A stretch of DNA of 5,584 nucleotides, taken from contig CAJWPW010000093.1 in NCBI GenBank assembly GCA_913045415.1, positions 1 through 5,584 of the forward strand, written 5' to 3'. A program made the translations under genes and the position numbers. The stretch is from an uncultured Fidelibacterota bacterium (GTDB lineage: Bacteria; Marinisomatota; Marinisomatia; Marinisomatales; UBA1611). Below are positions 1-5,584 of the stretch, piece by piece. Position 1 is the stretch's first letter. Each line of letters opens with the position of its first letter. The notes under the pieces were generated by a model. That model was not told the DNA's origin. It saw nothing but the letters and a program-made list of their open reading frames with translations, and made no database searches.

Positions 1-587
1 AACAATCTATGATTAATGAAAAAGGTGAATTGGTTTGTATCTCAGCATTCCCTTCCATGCCGATCCATTTTTGGAATGATCCAAATGGCATTAAATACCA
101 GAATGCGTATTTTGGGACTTTCCCCGGAATTTGGTACCATGGTGATTTTATTCGTGTATCTAAACATGGCGGAATCAAGATCTTTGGACGCAGCGATGCT
201 ACACTGAATCCCGGCGGTGTTCGGATTGGAACAGCAGAAATTTATCGTGTGGTGGAGGCAATGGATTTTGTGGAAGATAGTCTGGTGATCGGACAGGAAT
301 GGGAAGATGATCAGCGTGTAATTTTATTTTTAAAAATGAAGGAGGGTTTTATACTGAGCGATGAATTGATTGTGGAAATCAAATCCCAAATACGCTCCAA
401 CTGCTCACCAAGACATGTCCCAGCCAAAATCCTTGAAACAAAAGGAATCCCCTATACAATTAACTTGAAAAAAGTGGAAATCGCTGTAAAAAAGATCATC
501 CAAGGGAAAGATGTAACCAACCGCGATGCATTGGCAAATCCGGAAGTTTTGGATTTTTATAAAAATATTCCCGAATTACAATCTTAG
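1..587 (+). CDS. aacS: Acetoacetyl-CoA synthetase, C-terminal part (5' end outside window)
   Basis: This enzyme activates acetoacetate to acetoacetyl-CoA using ATP and CoA (acetoacetate-CoA ligase, adenylate-forming ANL superfamily, cytosolic), feeding ketone-body or polyhydroxybutyrate-type carbon into central metabolism. The reading frame is open to the left edge (first full codon at 3-5), so the Met codon at 9 is internal. What is visible is about 194 residues, against roughly 650 for the family, so the core N-terminal domain is missing. Seen: the FPSMPIHFWND block; the YHGDF segment carrying the ribose-binding Asp (codon 144-146); the hinge/C-domain motif GRSDATLNPGGVRIG; the family-typical SPRHVPAK; and a late PYTINLKKVE segment whose lysines (codons 468-473) occupy the catalytic A10 Lys position. 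The wording of these blocks fits acetoacetyl-CoA rather than acetyl-CoA synthetase. Its TAG stop overlaps the convergent GAPDH gene stop by 4 bp, leaving no room for a terminator. Confidence 0.93.
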   Translation, partial: QSMINEKGELVCISAFPSMPIHFWNDPNGIKYQNAYFGTFPGIWYHGDFIRVSKHGGIKIFGRSDATLNPGGVRIGTAEIYRVVEAMDFVEDSLVIGQEWEDDQRVILFLKMKEGFILSDELIVEIKSQIRSNCSPRHVPAKILETKGIPYTINLKKVEIAVKKIIQGKDVTNRDALANPEVLDFYKNIPELQS

Positions 588-1585
588 TCTAGTCGATCTA
601 ATATTCCCAGCAAATCAACTACTCGATTTGAATATCCCCATTCATTATCGTACCAGTTCAATGTCTTAACCATATTTCCCTGAACCACTTTCGTAAATGG
701 TGCATCAAAAATAGATGAATGTGGATTCCCAATAATGTCTGTTGATACAACCGGCAAGGTAGAATATTCTACTATTCGAGATAATCTTTCTGTTTGTGAA
801 GCTTCATACACAGCTTCATTTAATTGATCTTGTGTTACATCCTGACTCAAAATAAACACAGAATCTACGACTGAGCCATCAGGTACAGGAACACGCATAG
901 CAATACCATCTAATTTGCCTTCAAGTTCTGGCAGCACTTTCCCCACAGCCTTTGCAGCTCCGGTAGACGTTGGAATTATATTTTCTGCGGCTGCTCGACT
1001 TCGTCGCAAATCAGAATGAGGGACATCTGCCAGTCGTTGATCATTTGTATATGCATGAATTGTATTTATAACACCAAACTCAATTCCAAAATTATCATGA
1101 AGAATCATTGCCATTGGTGCCAAACAGTTTGTGGTGCAACTTGCGTTGGATATGATTTTATGTTCTGATGTCAAACTACCATCGTTTACACCAATCACAA
1201 CCATATTATCAATATCTTCTTTTGCTGGAACCGTAAGAATGATTCGTTTTGCACCTGCATCTAAATGTTGATTTAATAATGCTCTCGTACGAAAGATCCC
1301 GGTTGCTTCAATGACAATATCCACATCTATTTCTGCCCAAGGTAGTTGGGATGGATCCCGTTGATTTAACATTTTAATCGTATTGGATGATGTTTTAAGA
1401 ATATCACCTTCAGTTTCAACCGTATCATTAAATCGGCCCATCACTGTGTCATATTTTAATAAATAAGCTAGAACATCATTATCGGCTAAATCATTAATCG
1501 CAACCACATCAATATCATTTCGTTCATTCATGATTCGAAAGACAGACCGTCCAATCCTTCCAAATCCATTTATGGCCACTCTCAT
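584..1585 (-). CDS. gap: Glyceraldehyde-3-phosphate dehydrogenase, type I (active copy)
   Basis: This glycolytic/gluconeogenic enzyme converts glyceraldehyde 3-phosphate, phosphate and NAD+ to 1,3-bisphosphoglycerate; it acts in the cytosol as a tetramer. The 333 residues match the usual family length. Seen: N-terminal Rossmann motif INGFGRIGR (residues 5-13); Asp32 at the end of the second strand; the catalytic block SNASCTTNC with Cys150 (codon 1136-1138); His177 in HAYTNDQ; the phosphate-site TGAA (208-211); Arg231 in MRVPVPDGS; and C-terminal WYDNEWGY with Asn314. Asp32 plus the VP pair at 188-189 favour NAD over NADP (inferred from the known rule that chloroplast NADP enzymes carry Ala-Ser there). 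The ATG overlaps the stop of the upstream paralog as ATGA (1582-1585), and a clear AGGAG lies 7 nt upstream, so the start is secure and translation is probably coupled. The gene ends 4 bp inside the convergent synthetase gene, with no hairpin visible at the junction. Confidence 0.97.
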   Translation of the reverse strand: MRVAINGFGRIGRSVFRIMNERNDIDVVAINDLADNDVLAYLLKYDTVMGRFNDTVETEGDILKTSSNTIKMLNQRDPSQLPWAEIDVDIVIEATGIFRTRALLNQHLDAGAKRIILTVPAKEDIDNMVVIGVNDGSLTSEHKIISNASCTTNCLAPMAMILHDNFGIEFGVINTIHAYTNDQRLADVPHSDLRRSRAAAENIIPTSTGAAKAVGKVLPELEGKLDGIAMRVPVPDGSVVDSVFILSQDVTQDQLNEAVYEASQTERLSRIVEYSTLPVVSTDIIGNPHSSIFDAPFTKVVQGNMVKTLNWYDNEWGYSNRVVDLLGILDRLD

Positions 1586-2610
1586 GATCTATCTCCTACA
1601 TTTTCCAATTCCTGATAACATTTTATCAATTCTAATATTCGTGCAGAAAACCCCCAACCATTATCATACCAACAAACCGTTTTTAATAATTTATTGGCCG
1701 TAATCATTGTTGCTTTAGCATCATAAAGCATTGTTTCGCTACATCCGATAACATCACTCGAGACGATTGGATCATCCGTATATCCAACAATATTTTTGAG
1801 ATTCCCTTCAGCAAATTCTTTTATAGTAGCATTGGTTTCTTCTACTGATGGAAGTCGTTCTAAATCGGTAGTTAAATCAACCGCTGATCCATTTGAGACT
1901 GGTACATTAAAAGCAGTCCCAGCTATTTTTCCAGCAAATTGTGGCATTATTTTTTCAACAAAGTCTGGTGCCCAAGTTTTATTTGGAATAATATTTTCAA
2001 CTGCAGAACGGCTTCGTCGGAGATCAGTCTGTGCAGAGTCAGCCAATGGTTGATCGGACGTATAAGCATGAACCGTTGTCATCATTGCCCTTTTTACTCC
2101 AAATTTCTCATCAAGCATTTTGAGCATTAATGCCAAAACTTGCGTTGTGGATGACGTGGTTGAAATAATCTGGTCTAACGCTTCAATCGAATCTTCATTT
2201 ACTCCGGGAATAACAATTCGATCAATCTCATCATTAGGAGGAACAGTAACAATCACACGTTTTGCCCCTGCTTCAATTTGCTTTTGTAAATCAACCGAAT
2301 TTCTATATTTCCCAGTCGCATCAATTACAACGTCTACATCAAGGGCATCCCATGATATTTGGCCAGGATCTCCACCCGGAAGAATTTGTACTTTTTGATC
2401 ATTTGCAATTAAATAGTTACCTTCTAGGATAATCTCTTTTTCAAGTGGCCCATGAATTGAATCTCGCACTAATAAATAATGGAGTGATTCTGCAGGTCCC
2501 AGATCGCTAATTGCTACAAAATTAAAATTTGGATTTTTATACCCTTGTCGAAATAGGTTTCGTCCGATACGACCAAAACCAAATAGGGCAATATTTATAG
2601 GGTTATTCAT
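1582..2610 (-). CDS. GAPDH-family paralog lacking the catalytic cysteine (predicted pseudoenzyme)
   Basis: This 342-residue protein aligns with GAPDH from end to end and is first in a two-gene unit with the active copy. The nucleotide-binding part is kept: GFGRIGRN (11-18), Asp36, DATGKYR (97-103), and VTVPPNDEID followed by GVN. The catalytic block SNASCTTNC reads STTSSTTQV instead, putting Ser154 (codon TCC at 2149-2151) in place of Cys. His181 is retained (TVHAYTSDQ), as is DLRRSR. Other substrate residues are changed: the TGAA phosphate loop reads TWAP (Trp213, codon 1972-1974), the conserved Arg of MRVPV is Asn235 (codon 1906-1908), and WYDNEWG is WYDNGWG. Cys149 is known to be essential in GAPDH, so classical activity is not expected. 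The frame is intact with no stops or shifts, so this is a maintained gene and not a decaying copy. Role unknown; a regulatory or structural partner of the neighbouring GAPDH is an inference. The start has only a weak SD-like GATGG far upstream, but MNNPINIALFGFG begins the fold where expected. Confidence 0.9.
   Translation of the reverse strand: MNNPINIALFGFGRIGRNLFRQGYKNPNFNFVAISDLGPAESLHYLLVRDSIHGPLEKEIILEGNYLIANDQKVQILPGGDPGQISWDALDVDVVIDATGKYRNSVDLQKQIEAGAKRVIVTVPPNDEIDRIVIPGVNEDSIEALDQIISTTSSTTQVLALMLKMLDEKFGVKRAMMTTVHAYTSDQPLADSAQTDLRRSRSAVENIIPNKTWAPDFVEKIMPQFAGKIAGTAFNVPVSNGSAVDLTTDLERLPSVEETNATIKEFAEGNLKNIVGYTDDPIVSSDVIGCSETMLYDAKATMITANKLLKTVCWYDNGWGFSARILELIKCYQELENVGDRS
1593..1597 (-). 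promoter_or_regulatory. Shine-Dalgarno site for the active GAPDH gene
   Basis: AGGAG on the minus strand, 7 nt before the ATG at 1585. It lies inside the last codons of the upstream paralog, so ribosomes finishing that gene end on top of this start. It confirms the annotated start and supports coupled translation. Confidence 0.75.
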
Positions 2611-2723
2611 AAACTTATATATTCCATCTCAGTTCAGCCTTAAAATTAAAACAATAAATGGCATAAATGTTGCAACTATTAGAATTATTTTAAAATTTTC
2701 ATAATAAAATGAACTTGTATGGG

Positions 2724-2751
2724 TCGTCAATCGTAAAAAGGTGTGTATAAA
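2724..2751 (+). promoter_or_regulatory. Possible plus-strand promoter
   Basis: TCGTCA (2724-2729, four of six bases of TTGACA), a 16-nt spacer, then TATAAA (2746-2751, five of six bases of TATAAT). A transcript would begin near 2758 and end at the hairpin at about 2858, giving an RNA of about 100 nt. In such AT-rich DNA a match of this quality can occur by chance, and FCB-group promoters often depart from this consensus. Confidence 0.25.
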
Positions 2752-2756
2752 ACAAA

Positions 2757-2762
2757 AAGGAA
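2757..2762 (+). promoter_or_regulatory. Shine-Dalgarno-like site before the 17-codon ORF
   Basis: AAGGAA lies 6 nt before the ATG at 2769, at a good spacing and stronger than the sites before several of the certain genes here. It is the main reason to consider the short ORF translated. Confidence 0.35.
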
Positions 2763-2768
2763 CTAGTC

Positions 2769-2822
2769 ATGAAACAAACAGATAAAACAAAATCAGGAAC
2801 TGATATTGAGATTGCTCTATAA
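2769..2822 (+). CDS. Possible 17-residue peptide or leader ORF
   Basis: An ATG with a good ribosome site opens an 18-codon frame encoding MKQTDKTKSGTDIEIAL, ending in TAA 8 nt before a strong hairpin. The peptide is polar, with four lysines, no membrane segment, and no run of a single amino acid that would suggest attenuation. It could be a true microprotein, the coding part of a dual-function small RNA, the remnant of a longer gene, or chance. I recognise no family. The arrangement of possible promoter, SD, ORF and terminator within about 135 bases is what makes it worth listing. Confidence 0.25.
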   Translation: MKQTDKTKSGTDIEIAL

Positions 2823-2824
2823 AC

Positions 2825-2861
2825 AAAAAAGCCCATCACTAATGGGTGATGGGCTTTTATT
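2825..2861. terminator. Bidirectional rho-independent terminator
   Basis: GCCCATCAC (2831-2839) pairs with GTGATGGGC (2846-2854), a perfect 9-bp stem with a 6-base loop, extendable by one G-U pair on the plus strand. It is flanked by six A's on the left (2825-2830) and TTTTATT on the right. Read leftward it ends in six U's and sits 4 nt after the stop of the 27-residue ORF, so it most clearly terminates the right-hand operon. Read rightward it has a weaker U-tract and would end the short plus-strand transcript. Confidence 0.9.
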
Positions 2862-2943
2862 AATCGTCATAATCTTGAAACCGTTCTCTTACTTTCAAAA
2901 ATGCTATAAGAACCAATATTACAAATAATACCCCAATTGTCAC
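2860..2943 (-). CDS. 27-residue single-helix membrane microprotein
   Basis: A GTG codon overlaps the TGA stop of the preceding gene as GTGA (2940-2943), a standard translational-coupling arrangement, and GGGGA lies 5 nt upstream of it. The frame encodes 27 residues: a short start, a hydrophobic stretch (about residues 3-16, GVLFVILVLIAF in the middle), then a charged tail KVRERFQDYDD. The positive KVRER after the helix predicts an N-out/C-in single-pass topology. The TAA is 4 nt before the terminator hairpin, exactly where the last gene of an operon should end. No homologue is recognised and function is unknown. There is no ATG in the frame, so its reality rests on the coupled GTG, the membrane-like composition and the terminator placement. 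Confidence 0.55.
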   Translation of the reverse strand: MTIGVLFVILVLIAFLKVRERFQDYDD

Positions 2944-3278
2944 TTTTTCCCCGATTGACTAAACCCTAATGCACCATACCTATCATTTAAAACTATCACA
3001 CCATCCATATCCCGGTTCGAACCCATATACGCCGTTGGCTGTTCATATTTATTATAGGTCTGGACATATCCATTCTCATTTTTCCCCGTTCCTAAATACA
3101 GTGTTCGTTTTTGATCCTGGTTATAAGCGGTTATAAATCCGCCATGTCCGTCATCCTTAATTGTGATTGAATTCACCACAATATCACCAAAATTACTGCT
3201 ATCCTCGAACCCGCTTAATACGAAAAATAAAGTGGTGGTTAGCACTCCAATCAAAAAACTTTTAAAATCAATCTGCAT
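2940..3278 (-). CDS. Membrane-anchored or exported protein with three 23-residue repeats
   Basis: A 112-residue protein of unknown function. Residues 8-22 form one hydrophobic segment after a Lys-containing start (FKSFLIGVLTTTLFFVL), acting as a signal peptide or N-terminal anchor that places the rest outside the cytoplasm. From residue 47 to the end there are three copies of a 23-residue unit with the pattern G-x-[VI]-x-x-[YL]-N, then Y-[LM]-G-[TS] about 14 residues later. Regular Gly/Asn turns and alternating aliphatic/aromatic positions suggest a small beta-solenoid or stacked hairpins (inference). Start choice: an ATG at 3284 is also in frame, but AAGGAG (3287-3292) is only 2 nt from it and 8 nt from the ATG at 3278, so 3278 is preferred. 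It lies 15 nt after the phosphatase gene and overlaps the next microprotein by 4 nt. Confidence 0.8.
   Translation of the reverse strand: MQIDFKSFLIGVLTTTLFFVLSGFEDSSNFGDIVVNSITIKDDGHGGFITAYNQDQKRTLYLGTGKNENGYVQTYNKYEQPTAYMGSNRDMDGVIVLNDRYGALGFSQSGKK
2943..3140 (-). repeat. Three tandem 23-residue protein repeats
   Basis: Coding repeat inside the preceding gene. Unit 1 begins GGFITAYNQDQ and ends at YLGTGKNEN; unit 2 begins GYVQTYNKYEQ and ends at YMGSNRDMD; unit 3 begins GVIVLNDRYG and is cut at the C-terminus after GFSQSGKK. Units 1 and 2 are each exactly 23 residues. The DNA copies have diverged, so the repeat is visible in protein only. Confidence 0.7.
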
Positions 3279-3286
3279 TATCATTT

Positions 3287-3292
3287 CTCCTT
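3287..3292 (-). promoter_or_regulatory. Shine-Dalgarno site that decides the repeat-protein start
   Basis: AAGGAG lies directly after the stop of the phosphatase gene. It is 2 nt from the ATG at 3284 and 8 nt from the ATG at 3278, so the second Met is the likely start. Confidence 0.7.
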
Positions 3293-3293
3293 A

Positions 3294-4067
3294 TTAATTC
3301 AAAATATTTTGAAAGTCTGCAATTGAATCAATCAAGCCATCTGGATCAATCTTGCTTGATTCTATCATCCCTTCATGATATTTGCCGGTTTTTACCAAAA
3401 TGCCCGGTATTCCAAGATTTTGTGCCCCATTTACATCATTAATTAGATCATCACCAATCATGACTACTTCATCAGGAGCTAATCTTAAATCATCCAATGC
3501 ACATTGGAAAAATGCTTTATTGGGTTTCCCAACAAGTTGAGATTCCTTTCCTGTGGAAAATTCTAAGGCAGCAACAAACCCACCTGCATCCATTCGTAAA
3601 CCACTATCTACTCTATAATATTTCCCCTTGTGAAGTGCAATAATTTCTGCTCCATTCATCACATGATAAAAAGCCTCGTTCAATAGATCGTAAGTCCATT
3701 CATCAAAATCTCCGATCACAATTACTTCAGGATTTTCCAGATCTTCTTCAAATTCTATATAGTCTTGTTTCAGGTTTTCCGTGATGAAAAATCGGCAGGA
3801 TGGCGATCCTTTTTTTCGTAAGAAATCTATCCCCGCAAATCCTGCAGAAATGATCTCATTCTCTATGCATGCCAATCCAATATTAGTCAAGTTTTCTTGA
3901 AGTGTATGTCTATTATTTGTGGTGGTATTTGTTAGGAATCGAAATGGAAGATTGTTTCTTCTCAAATAGCTTAATGCGTCAATTGCACCGGGGAGGGGTT
4001 TCCCAGATTGGTAAAACACACCATCCAGATCAAATAAGAATCCTTTAGCTTTCCGAATCAATTCCAT
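3294..4067 (-). CDS. HAD superfamily subfamily IIA phosphatase (NagD/LHPP/HDHD2-like)
   Basis: A 257-residue cytosolic Mg2+-dependent phosphatase; the physiological substrate cannot be read from the sequence (NagD relatives act on nucleotides, others on p-nitrophenyl phosphate, phosphoglycolate or pyrophosphate). All HAD motifs are present: motif I FDLDGVFY with nucleophile Asp13 and Asp15; motif II FLTNTTT with Thr46; motif III Lys181 in LVGKPNKAFF; motif IV IGDDLINDV with Asp206, Asp207 and Asp211. The C2-type cap spans roughly residues 80-180 and includes VIVIGDFDEWTY and the DAGGFVAALE segment reminiscent of the HDHD2/LHPP branch. Length fits the IIA family. The start overlaps the preceding gene by 23 bp; GGAAGAG lies 4 nt before the ATG, and the fold begins right after it, so the start is credible. 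The stop is followed at once by the ribosome site of the next gene. A housekeeping metabolite-repair role is plausible. Confidence 0.93.
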   Translation of the reverse strand: MELIRKAKGFLFDLDGVFYQSGKPLPGAIDALSYLRRNNLPFRFLTNTTTNNRHTLQENLTNIGLACIENEIISAGFAGIDFLRKKGSPSCRFFITENLKQDYIEFEEDLENPEVIVIGDFDEWTYDLLNEAFYHVMNGAEIIALHKGKYYRVDSGLRMDAGGFVAALEFSTGKESQLVGKPNKAFFQCALDDLRLAPDEVVMIGDDLINDVNGAQNLGIPGILVKTGKYHEGMIESSKIDPDGLIDSIADFQNILN

Positions 4068-4320
4068 CTTGCTCTTCCAATTTTTCTTTTAGGTCACTCA
4101 TCTTTTGAATTGATGTATTTTGTCCCAGTTCACCAGAATCAAACTCTTCATGCCATCGTTCTTTCGCATAAAGGACTCTCATAATCAAAATGGTTGCATA
4201 GATAAAAAGAAGACTAATAAAACCAACCACATGAAATGAATTTTCTCTGTCCACCATGAAAAATAAAAATAAGAGGACCAGCGGCATCCAACGAATCAGT
4301 TTTTGGACAATTTTTCCCAT
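4045..4320 (-). CDS. Small membrane protein with two transmembrane helices
   Basis: This 91-residue protein belongs to no family I recognise. Seen: a basic start (MGKIVQKLIRW), a first hydrophobic helix at about residues 9-23 (MPLVLLFLFFMV), a short charged turn DRENSF, a second helix at about 31-51 (VVGFISLLFIYATILIMRVL), then a hydrophilic, acidic tail of about 40 residues (KERWHEEFDSGE... to SDLKEKLEEQ) that may form a short coiled coil. The basic N-terminus and the tail are probably both cytoplasmic, making a helical hairpin. It starts 4 nt after the stop of the upstream hydrolase gene with no clear SD, implying coupled translation, and its last 23 bp overlap the phosphatase gene. The tail could contact that phosphatase or another operon product, but nothing shows this directly. 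Confidence 0.75.
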   Translation of the reverse strand: MGKIVQKLIRWMPLVLLFLFFMVDRENSFHVVGFISLLFIYATILIMRVLYAKERWHEEFDSGELGQNTSIQKMSDLKEKLEEQDGIDSES

Positions 4321-4324
4321 GGAA

Positions 4325-5065
4325 TTAATTCAATGTTTCACTCACGAATTCTAACATTTTCTTCTGTTTTGTCAGATATCCTAGACGGGTTTCAATATTT
4401 ACATAGCGCACATTTCTACGCAGGGATTCCCAAGATAAACTTCCATCATCTCTTTTTATGACCGTATCCTGAAGAACAACATTATATGGTCCATTCGCTA
4501 GTTTTTCGAAGTCTTTCTCGTGAGTGCATAATATAAAATCTCTAGGATTTTGTTGTTTTTTTATAGATGTCTTCCGGCTGTATTTCAACTCATATTTCAC
4601 ATTGTAACCACGAAAATTATTATGGACAGAAATCAATATACCATCCTTCTTTGGCATAATTTTTTCCAAAAATTGGATTCGGTCTCTTTCAATATCATCT
4701 AATGCTTTTTTTAATGTTCCCGGCGGCCAATAAGGTTTGAATTTTTTTAACGAATGGTAAGAGCCACTCCGTGAAAAAAGCCGGTTTGGATCAATGATAG
4801 TCGATAAGTATGGAATTTCGCGATTATCATTTTGGATAAAAAATGCTCTCCCCGGGAAATGACTAATATGATGATCTAAAGCCATTTTTGCCGTTTTTTC
4901 ATCTCCGTGGAGCCATATGTAATGAACCGACGAATTACCATTTTCTACGAGATTAAAATCGGTACCTGCAAATGTGATAGGCGATGGTGAAGTATCCATT
5001 TCTTCATTTTCTGAGCCCAAAATGAATGAAAAAGTGAAACCAAAAAGTATTAATCTATTTAACAA
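4325..5065 (-). CDS. Exported M14/AstE-AspA-like zinc hydrolase candidate
   Basis: A 246-residue protein by the start preferred here. Residues 1-18 look like a signal peptide (LLNRLILFGFTFSFILGSEN, with Asn-Arg, a hydrophobic core, then Gly-Ser). The mature part carries, in order, the marks of M14-type metallocarboxypeptidases and AstE/AspA-like deacylases: WLHGDE (His53, Glu56, an HxxE zinc pair), IDPNRLFSR (Asp92-Arg95, compare DxNRxF), SVHNN (His148, third zinc ligand), and VNIETRLG (Glu225, at the place of the general base). A peptide- or amide-cleaving activity outside the cytoplasm is inferred; the substrate is unknown. Start choice: the frame stays open to an ATG at 5185, but that would overlap the secreted protein gene by 131 bp. 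A TTG at 5063-5065 with AAAAGG 6 nt upstream gives a clean signal peptide and an 11-bp overlap. An ATG at 4999 would remove the signal peptide. Confidence 0.7.
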   Translation of the reverse strand: MLNRLILFGFTFSFILGSENEEMDTSPSPITFAGTDFNLVENGNSSVHYIWLHGDEKTAKMALDHHISHFPGRAFFIQNDNREIPYLSTIIDPNRLFSRSGSYHSLKKFKPYWPPGTLKKALDDIERDRIQFLEKIMPKKDGILISVHNNFRGYNVKYELKYSRKTSIKKQQNPRDFILCTHEKDFEKLANGPYNVVLQDTVIKRDDGSLSWESLRRNVRYVNIETRLGYLTKQKKMLEFVSETLN

Positions 5066-5584
5066 GGATCGCCTTTTGGATTTGGGTGAATTCACCGAAT
5101 CGTAATTGGATAAAATAAATACCGCTGGGATGATTGGATGCATTCCATTGGATTTCATGAATACCGGAAAAAAGTTTTCGATCAATCAGTGTTTCCACAA
5201 GACGACCGGTTATATCTAATACACGTAGAGACACCGTATGATTATTAAGATCCTGATCGTCATTAATAAAATGCAGGCGAGGAGTCGATGAATGCTGTGT
5301 ATCTACTAAATCAAAACTTATTGTGGTAGTTGGATTAAACGGATTCGGATAATTCGGGAATAAATAAAAACCATTCGTAGTCACATACTGATCTTCGTTA
5401 ACAGATAATAATGTGTGGCAATTTTCCAGATCCCAGCCATTCTGTGGAAAAACATGATTAACATAATCAGGAGGACAATCTTCAAAAATATTGTGGTGGG
5501 CAAAAATGGGTGTCCAATCGGTAGTATCTATTGGCGGATACCTAAAAAGATCAAAGCCATAATCACCATAATTTTCAAAAAATG
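5055..5584 (-). CDS. T9SS-secreted protein, C-terminal part with sorting domain (5' end outside window)
   Basis: The frame is open to the right edge, and the visible 175 residues contain no Met, so the gene starts beyond the window; a GTG at 5384 is internal. The last ~105 residues are a Por/type IX secretion C-terminal sorting domain: FYLFPNYPNPFNPTTTISF, then VSLRVLDITGRLVETLI, the SGIHEIQWNA strand, the PSGIYFIQLR strand and a terminal KAILVK. Such domains direct export through the outer membrane by the type IX system, followed by surface attachment or release. Between the first and second strands is an unusual insert of about 22 residues (TQHSST to NNHT). The 71 residues before the domain are rich in Asp, Tyr, Phe and Trp (FENYGDYGFDLFRYPP, DTTDWTPIFAHHN) with two Cys, and match no enzyme I recognise. 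It is the first visible gene of the leftward operon; its TAG overlaps the signal peptide of the next gene. Confidence 0.9.
   Translation of the reverse strand, partial: FFENYGDYGFDLFRYPPIDTTDWTPIFAHHNIFEDCPPDYVNHVFPQNGWDLENCHTLLSVNEDQYVTTNGFYLFPNYPNPFNPTTTISFDLVDTQHSSTPRLHFINDDQDLNNHTVSLRVLDITGRLVETLIDRKLFSGIHEIQWNASNHPSGIYFIQLRFGEFTQIQKAILVK
5072..5077 (-). promoter_or_regulatory. Shine-Dalgarno-like site supporting a TTG start
   Basis: AAAAGG lies 6 nt before the TTG at 5065-5063. It overlaps the last codons of the secreted protein gene and favours the TTG start of the M14-like gene over the distant ATG at 5185. Confidence 0.4.

Follow-up and report, generated by a model that had tools for sequence, protein, structure and literature searches.

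Why would a bacterium keep a glyceraldehyde-3-phosphate dehydrogenase (GAPDH) from which the catalytic cysteine has gone, directly upstream of a GAPDH in which it is present? The question is posed by a stretch of 5,584 nucleotides (hereafter the window) of an uncultured Fidelibacterota bacterium (GenBank assembly GCA_913045415.1, contig CAJWPW010000093.1, positions 1 to 5,584), in which the two genes overlap. Throughout, "dead" denotes the Cys-less GAPDH paralogue and "live" the canonical GAPDH with its catalytic Cys. GAPDH is the textbook homo-tetramer of bacterial glycolysis; judging from sequence, we consider it probable that the dead gene specifies a catalytically inactive subunit (a pseudoenzyme) of a mixed GAPDH, made alongside the catalytic subunit.

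The dead open reading frame (ORF) runs on the minus strand without interruption over 342 codons, from an ATG at 2610–2608 to a stop at 1584–1582. A preliminary description of the window had placed the gene correctly at 1582..2610 but left the strand unstated, and the overlapping canonical GAPDH was absent from it. The residue changes that it listed were each verified on the window sequence, as were the open frame and the retained His, DLRRSR and GFGRIGR. The dead protein carries Ser154, within STTSSTTQV, at the site of the catalytic Cys; IPNKTWAP where the phosphate loop is canonically IPTSTGAA; Asn235 in FNVPV, where the canonical motif is MRVPV, at a site that we take to be Arg231 of Bacillus stearothermophilus GAPDH; and CWYDNGWG for canonical NWYDNEWG. 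His181, DLRRSR and GFGRIGR are retained together with Asp36 and YDN, the N of which is presumably Asn313 by the usual numbering. Standard residue roles and B. stearothermophilus numbering are assumed throughout, except at positions 187–188, for which the papers cited below are followed. The Cys preceding WYDN was considered as a lost nicotinamide adenine dinucleotide (NAD) residue and rejected, as single-copy GAPDHs also lack Asn there (Ser 19, Gly 6 and Ala 5 of 30).

The NAD fold had been said to be kept, which is correct for the window protein. Both Pfam domains are found above their cut-offs (Gp_dh_N 96.1 bits, Gp_dh_C 164.8 bits), and the AlphaFold2 model (predicted local distance difference test, pLDDT, 88.9; predicted template modelling score, pTM, 0.87) has the GAPDH fold, as also indicated by Foldseek and VIA. 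Against TIGR01534, the model of type I GAPDH, the dead protein scores 325.6 bits, under the cut-off of 367.2, and its live neighbour 425.3, over it. Low AlphaFold2 confidence in the S-loop (residues 185–204 below 50) was rejected as a sign of a special role, since the live control behaves alike (181–190). The dead C-terminus ends 22 residues past NGWG and the live one 16 past NEWG, neither with an extension of about 30 amino acids.

The same substitutions recur well beyond the window. In each homologue search at most 8000 candidates were scored and the best 120 matches considered; the best 120 protein matches are 67–99% identical to the window protein, and the organisms named among them are all Candidatus Marinimicrobia or Fidelibacterota. 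With the window protein included (121 rows), the Cys position holds Ser in 119 and Ala in two, never Cys, and the Arg231 position holds Asn in 121 of 121; Gly occurs at phosphate-loop position 213 in 16 of these rows. A further 238 proteins from later homologue searches have no Cys and invariably Asn at Arg231. Plasmid records matching the window protein (P0001) number 265, and the eight listed are named GAPDHs at 40–44% identity. Metagenome-assembled genome (MAG) entries at NCBI name several dead proteins "type I glyceraldehyde-3-phosphate dehydrogenase" or "aldehyde dehydrogenase"; the window protein itself falls below the TIGR01534 cut-off.

The arrangement of the two genes recurs as well. 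A back-translation search gave nine loci, all in Neomarinimicrobiota, with the dead gene directly 5′ of the live gene in nine of nine, and these nine genomes hold exactly two GAPDH matches apiece, the pair itself. A survey of 245 genomes of Fidelibacterota (Marinimicrobia/SAR406), run from a relative's genome, gave a GAPDH match in 173; fetched from it were dead candidates among the matches listed, hand-picked genomes and single-copy examples, and the third and fourth matches of a genome were inspected in part. The other 72 genomes had no GAPDH match, and among 20 of these listed, 17 are at most 1.0 Mb, perhaps streamlined or incomplete. Altogether, at least 123 distinct pair-type dead proteins come from at least 119 genomes of the phylum. 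A GAPDH lies on the same strand directly 3′ of the dead gene in 122 of 123 cases (Cys is visible in 119; three partners are cut at that column), and the remaining dead gene is 124 bases from a contig end. From dead stop to live start, the spacing in the 122 pairs is −4 in 79, −1 in 19, 0 to +11 in 23 and −17 in one. Frames are intact in nearly all dead copies, two (L070 and L071) being split. The outer neighbours vary, with phosphofructokinase and class II aldolase at L002, pyruvate kinase and a TrmB regulator at L055 and a LacI-type regulator at L059; because the genes outside the pair change, the dead–live linkage is what is conserved.

To see what was lost and what was kept, columns were compared across 124 dead, 120 paired live and 30 single-copy proteins, identical proteins per genome being counted once; L178, L175 and L176, rows gapped at the Cys column and matches below 250 bits were omitted, and the live set includes G140, whose upstream neighbour is truncated by a contig end. 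The catalytic Cys is absent from all 124 dead proteins (Ser 93, Ala 30, Thr 1), all of which have Asn for Arg231, where the paired live proteins have Arg in 120 of 120. In the phosphate loop, Asn210 for Thr is fixed (124/124) and position 213 is variable (Trp 29, Ile 17, Arg 15, Pro 15, others, Gly 1). The Glu of NEWG (318) is replaced by Gly (107) or Ser (17), against Glu in all 118 readable live rows, and Asn185 by Ser, Ala or Gly in every dead protein. Invariant in 124 of 124 are His181, Thr184, Thr155, Ser153 and Arg201, which we take to be catalytic and phosphate-contact positions, as well as Asp186. The N of YDN is kept in 114 of 124 rows and Arg14 of GFGRIGR in 95 of 122, the other 27 having Glu, His or Asn. 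The S-loop (residues 181–209), which PMC10318897 describes as inserted between the NAD-binding site and the adjoining subunit, is preferentially conserved: 19 of its 29 columns are at least 90% conserved in the dead set, versus 69 of 307 elsewhere (p 3e-6).

The pair has a single origin in the trees. In a FastTree phylogeny of 124 dead (including the window), 120 paired live, 38 single-copy, five Gly-type and six outgroup sequences, the dead proteins form one clade (support 100) and the paired live proteins another (99), with none of the 38 single-copy GAPDHs inside either. A mixture-model tree of 90 rows recovers both (100 and 98) as sister clades (90); this tree, the approximately unbiased (AU) test and the Bacteroidales trees used a chosen subset of 29 pair loci plus the window. 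Branching within the two clades is largely congruent, L064 and L053 being placed differently. These trees would be explained if the gene was duplicated in tandem once within the phylum and the two copies then descended together. Nested within the dead clade, with a more degraded NAD motif, are three members labelled Bacteroidales or Bacteroidetes (P0341, P0344, P0349) and a fourth from a 4.05 Mb contig (P0350). The Bacteroidales-named branch has a broken NAD fingerprint (GFGEIPR) and retains TSDQPLRD and YRRSRSAAENIIPN; its members fit either transfer out of the phylum or mis-binned or mislabelled MAGs.

Selection on the dead gene was estimated from the ratio of non-synonymous to synonymous substitution rates (dN/dS) in 62 close pairs of loci, each locus having a single dead and a single live gene above 300 bits (G123 excluded) and each pair with a dead identity of at least 80% and both dS values at 0.05–1.5; the pairs share genomes and are non-independent. 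Median dN/dS is 0.053 for dead (maximum 0.170) and 0.043 for live genes, dead exceeding live in 50 of 62 pairs. Between the window and its nearest relative, dN/dS is 0.153 for dead and 0.074 for live (13.5 and 8.5 non-synonymous changes). Purifying selection on the dead gene is thus strong by these ratios, slightly weaker than on the enzyme, and divergence in the dead clade is about 1.8 times that in the live one (median root-to-tip 0.95 versus 0.52). The preliminary description had argued for repurposing of an undamaged gene, and had named Cys in close homologues and relaxed selection as outcomes that would speak against it. Cys occurs in 0 of 121 and 0 of 124 rows, dN/dS is far below 1, and relatives at 99%, 96% and 84% identity carry the identical substitution set, so that a local error is excluded and the family-wide absence of Cys together with the low dN/dS supports repurposing. 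Of the Ser, Trp and Asn changes that it had singled out for comparison across related genomes, Asn is constant in the family (124/124), and Ser (93/124) and Trp (29/124) vary.

The live partners have changed as well. Six columns carry different majority residues (at least 85% in each set) in paired live and in single-copy GAPDHs. Three of these lie in the S-loop (186, L to A; 196, A to S; 202, S to N; excess p 0.01); the others are 47 (S to T) and 49 (H to M) in the YDSVHG segment and one at 65. These changes are suggestive of co-adapted interfaces, short of proof.

Taken together, the observations are best accommodated by an inactive subunit of a mixed GAPDH. Within Fidelibacterota, the gene for the glycolytic GAPDH would have been duplicated once in tandem; one copy would then have lost its nucleophile together with the Arg of the substrate-phosphate site and been retained as the upstream partner of the adjoining GAPDH. 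The overlap suggests that both genes are translated in a coupled manner, after which dead and live chains would assemble into a hetero-tetramer; the dead subunit would supply the inter-subunit S-loop and other contacts, turnover would be left to the live subunits alone, and the live subunit may be regulated or stabilised in consequence. The gene arrangement fits two paralogues made together (tandem in 122/123, overlap of −4 or −1 in 98/122). The dead protein itself has probably lost GAPDH activity, and the marks of a pseudoenzyme under selection, namely clade-wide loss of catalytic residues, an intact frame and purifying selection, are all present.

Several points weigh against this reading. 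Tandem order and overlap would also suit a protein that acts on dosage or assembly and forms no stable complex, dead homo-oligomers would also need the S-loop, and the structure models cover single chains only. The S-loop contrast weakens when restricted to columns that are constant (at least 95%) in the live set, of which the dead proteins keep 15 of 25 in the S-loop versus 43 of 121 elsewhere (p 0.027); the ten that are not kept include the Pro188 position and the next His. The catalytic segment is also half conserved in the dead set (6 of 12 columns), and the ten segments compared were of our own choosing. Column counts ignore relatedness, so the six-column contrast of the live partners may rest on one stem branch, and Ser196 and Asn202 are common to the dead clade and may predate the duplication.

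Of the functions that the preliminary description had offered, an allosteric or structural partner is favoured by the tandem arrangement in 122 of 123 cases, a general NAD sensor is weakened and a new Ser chemistry is disfavoured. On the sensor reading, the dead protein would sense NAD(H) or a metabolite, or moonlight in some other role, as a homo-oligomer independent of the live enzyme, with the operon as its one tie to GAPDH. The window protein retains GFGRIGR, Asp36 and YDN, and through the invariant His181, Thr184, Thr155, Ser153 and Arg201 a small ligand may still bind. Yet a GAPDH adjoins in every case but the one at a contig end, Arg14 has become Glu, His or Asn in 27 of 122, a further branch reads GFGEIPR, and Asn185 and Glu318 are replaced in all 124. 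A general NAD-sensor reading is weakened because GFGRIGR is altered in several branches while the S-loop stays, and we regard it as unlikely. Very unlikely, in our estimate, is a translational or assembly role, in which the upstream ORF serves mainly to set the coupling and timing of live GAPDH synthesis, or its product assists folding for a short time. The −4 or −1 overlaps and the Shine–Dalgarno-like GGAG within the dead ORF would suit it, but coupling alone is unlikely to hold a whole 340-amino-acid protein at a dN/dS of about 0.05, and would not lead one to expect an S-loop conserved above the rest.

A new chemistry with Ser as nucleophile could draw on the fold, NAD motif and catalytic His of the window protein. 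It is highly improbable, because no nucleophile is conserved: besides the 30 Ala and one Thr among the 124, a further 118 proteins include Ala in 68, Gly in one and Thr in one. The same invariant His and other positions might serve a low-activity or conditional GAPDH that uses a residue other than a Cys at position 154, which we find scarcely credible given that every member examined lacks Cys and has another residue for Arg231, and that the phosphate loop is altered. Sequencing error or decay was rejected on the relatives with the same changes and the low dN/dS. The greater divergence of the dead clade and its higher dN/dS in 50 of 62 pairs are what a decaying copy or assembly artefact would produce, but identical substitutions in 119 genomes, dN/dS of about 0.05 and frames intact nearly throughout leave that account with virtually no chance.

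An inactive subunit of a mixed GAPDH might do more than complete an interface. A doubtful extension of that reading, to which we assign a low probability, is that the dead subunit acts within the enzyme as an allosteric element and a determinant of cofactor specificity, its S-loop facing the coenzyme pocket of the live subunit across the R axis. Pro188 occurs in none of the 124 dead proteins (Ala 62, Val 46, Ile 9, Thr 6, Leu 1), compared with 115 of 120 paired live (Ser in five) and 30 of 30 single-copy GAPDHs. In plastid GAPDH, S-loop residue 188 is described as touching the 2′-phosphate of NADPH, the reduced form of the phosphorylated coenzyme (NADP), on the subunit across the R axis (PMC3728087), and some changes at 187–188 or the E. 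coli equivalents are reported to confer NADP use (PMC9145139). The best-scoring solved sequence, 3dbv, is a B. stearothermophilus mutant with Ala-Ser as its S-loop pair. Because the dead protein lacks Pro188 and in view of the evidence on residue 188, a dead–live R-axis dimer could relax cofactor choice at the live site. Against this, the single change G188N gave no NADP use according to PMC9145139; at residue 188, 117 of the 124 dead proteins have Ala, Val or Ile and none has Ser, and the loss of Pro may be drift. If the idea were right, a glycolytic GAPDH with an NAD-type pocket would become a half-sites enzyme, with a relaxed NAD/NADP choice or a fixed affinity impossible for a homo-tetramer.

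Dead paralogue partners are known, and so are GAPDH hetero-tetramers in plastids; a clade-wide bacterial dead GAPDH coupled to a live one did not come up among the papers listed in the literature searches summarised below. The type I GAPDH of B. stearothermophilus (1gd1; Cys149Ser 1nq5, Cys149Ala 1npt) is 40–42% identical to the window protein, which shares its fold, Rossmann motif, catalytic His and S-loop core; unlike it, the dead family naturally lacks Cys and Arg231 and has an altered phosphate loop and NEWG Glu. In trypanosomatids, the S-adenosylmethionine (AdoMet) decarboxylase prozyme is a dead paralogue that acts as activator, on a fold unrelated to GAPDH. Plastid GapA and GapB, both catalytic, are among the solved relatives (2pkq, 7q53–7q57) and would be an architectural analogue, a hetero-tetramer of GAPDH paralogues as proposed here. 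According to PMC3728087, 2pkq is an A2B2 GAPDH, GapB carries a CP12-like C-terminal extension of about 30 amino acids, and GapA is of cyanobacterial (Gap2) origin; the extension is absent in the window pair, and the Fidelibacterota pair, unlike GapA, arose by duplication within the phylum as far as the trees indicate. Trypanosomatid deoxyhypusine synthase is described as a hetero-tetramer of a live subunit and its dead paralogue (PMC3663545); that enzyme is unrelated, and complex and activation were measured there. Epd and ArsJ-associated GAPDH are bacterial GAPDH paralogues with other roles, and the examples at hand (L117 and L118, respectively) retain Cys; the window protein scores far under the cut-offs of their models (256 versus 530.55 and 539; 264 versus 450 bits). 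Of the papers listed by searches of the open-licence PubMed Central (PMC) literature, none deals with a dead GAPDH from bacteria or from Fidelibacterota, subscription papers and preprints being outside that scope.

The phylum holds other unusual GAPDHs. A second Cys-less type (L178, L180–L183 and L187, in genomes G196, G195, G197, G199, G032 and G031) has Gly for Cys (NASGTTNS or HASGTTNS), a phosphate loop of TTTWA or TTTHA and Arg231 kept, with no other GAPDH within the fetched stretch. Its members cluster with the single-copy GAPDHs and stand outside the main dead clade, five such rows forming one clade; the trees do not support a common origin of the two types, which the AU test nevertheless fails to reject (p 0.077). 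L175 (G110) and L176 (G011) are GAPDH-like but very divergent; both have a Cys at the aligned position and match the profile weakly (176.6 and 82.1 bits).

Table 1. Features of the dead–live gene pair and its upstream region in the window.
Feature	Position	Strand	Remark
Cys-less GAPDH paralogue (dead)	1582..2610	−	342 amino acids, Gp_dh_N and Gp_dh_C; proposed non-catalytic subunit
Canonical type I GAPDH (live)	584..1585	−	333 amino acids; SNASCTTNC, PTSTGAAK, MRVPV, NWYDNEWG; proposed catalytic subunit
ATGA overlap, 4 bp	1582..1585	−	Live start codon overlaps dead stop codon
GGAG, Shine–Dalgarno-like	1593..1596	−	7 nucleotides 5′ of live ATG, within dead gene; putative assignment
Codon TCC (Ser154), catalytic Cys position	2149..2151	−	Family: Ser 93, Ala 30, Thr 1 of 124
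Asn235 codon, substrate-phosphate Arg position	1906..1908	−	Asn 124/124 dead, Arg 120/120 paired live
Rebuilt phosphate loop Asn210-Lys-Thr-Trp213	1972..1983	−	Replaces Thr-Ser-Thr-Gly; Asn210 124/124, position 213 variable
Gly318 codon, NEWG to NGWG	1657..1659	−	Dead Gly 107, Ser 17 of 124; live Glu 118/118 readable rows
S-loop, residues 181–209	1984..2070	−	Best kept among ten compared segments
Rossmann GFGRIGR	2560..2580	−	Intact in window protein, altered in some other branches
Terminator-like hairpin and T tail, upstream of pair	2827..2858	−	Consensus match only; 3 found in window vs 1.8 expected
Promoter-like TTGACG-18-TATTAT, upstream of pair	2701..2730	−	Weak; 16 found vs 11.0 expected

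With the flanking hairpin, the promoter-like match and an opposite-strand ORF that converges on its 3′ end, the dead–live pair looks like a separate two-gene unit (Table 1). The convergent ORF (3–587, plus strand) is itself without a Pfam match; judged by synteny, it probably encodes the C-terminus of an acyl-CoA synthetase, the full-length convergent neighbour at L001 being an AMP-binding/ACAS_N protein. Elsewhere in the window, the minus strand encodes a HAD-like hydrolase (3294–4067) and an ORF with a terminal Por_Secre_tail sorting domain (5055–5582).

GAPDH copy counts and expression data for the phylum may be misread, because NCBI and Joint Genome Institute (JGI) entries name dead proteins GAPDH. 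The dead twin offers a natural experiment on what is still needed of a GAPDH subunit once catalysis is gone, and it bears on the long-standing problem of site coupling in GAPDH and its reasons, PMC5385343 citing negative effects between subunits. If the dead gene does encode an inactive subunit of a mixed GAPDH, a central glycolytic step in a widespread ocean phylum would depend on an obligate mixed enzyme.

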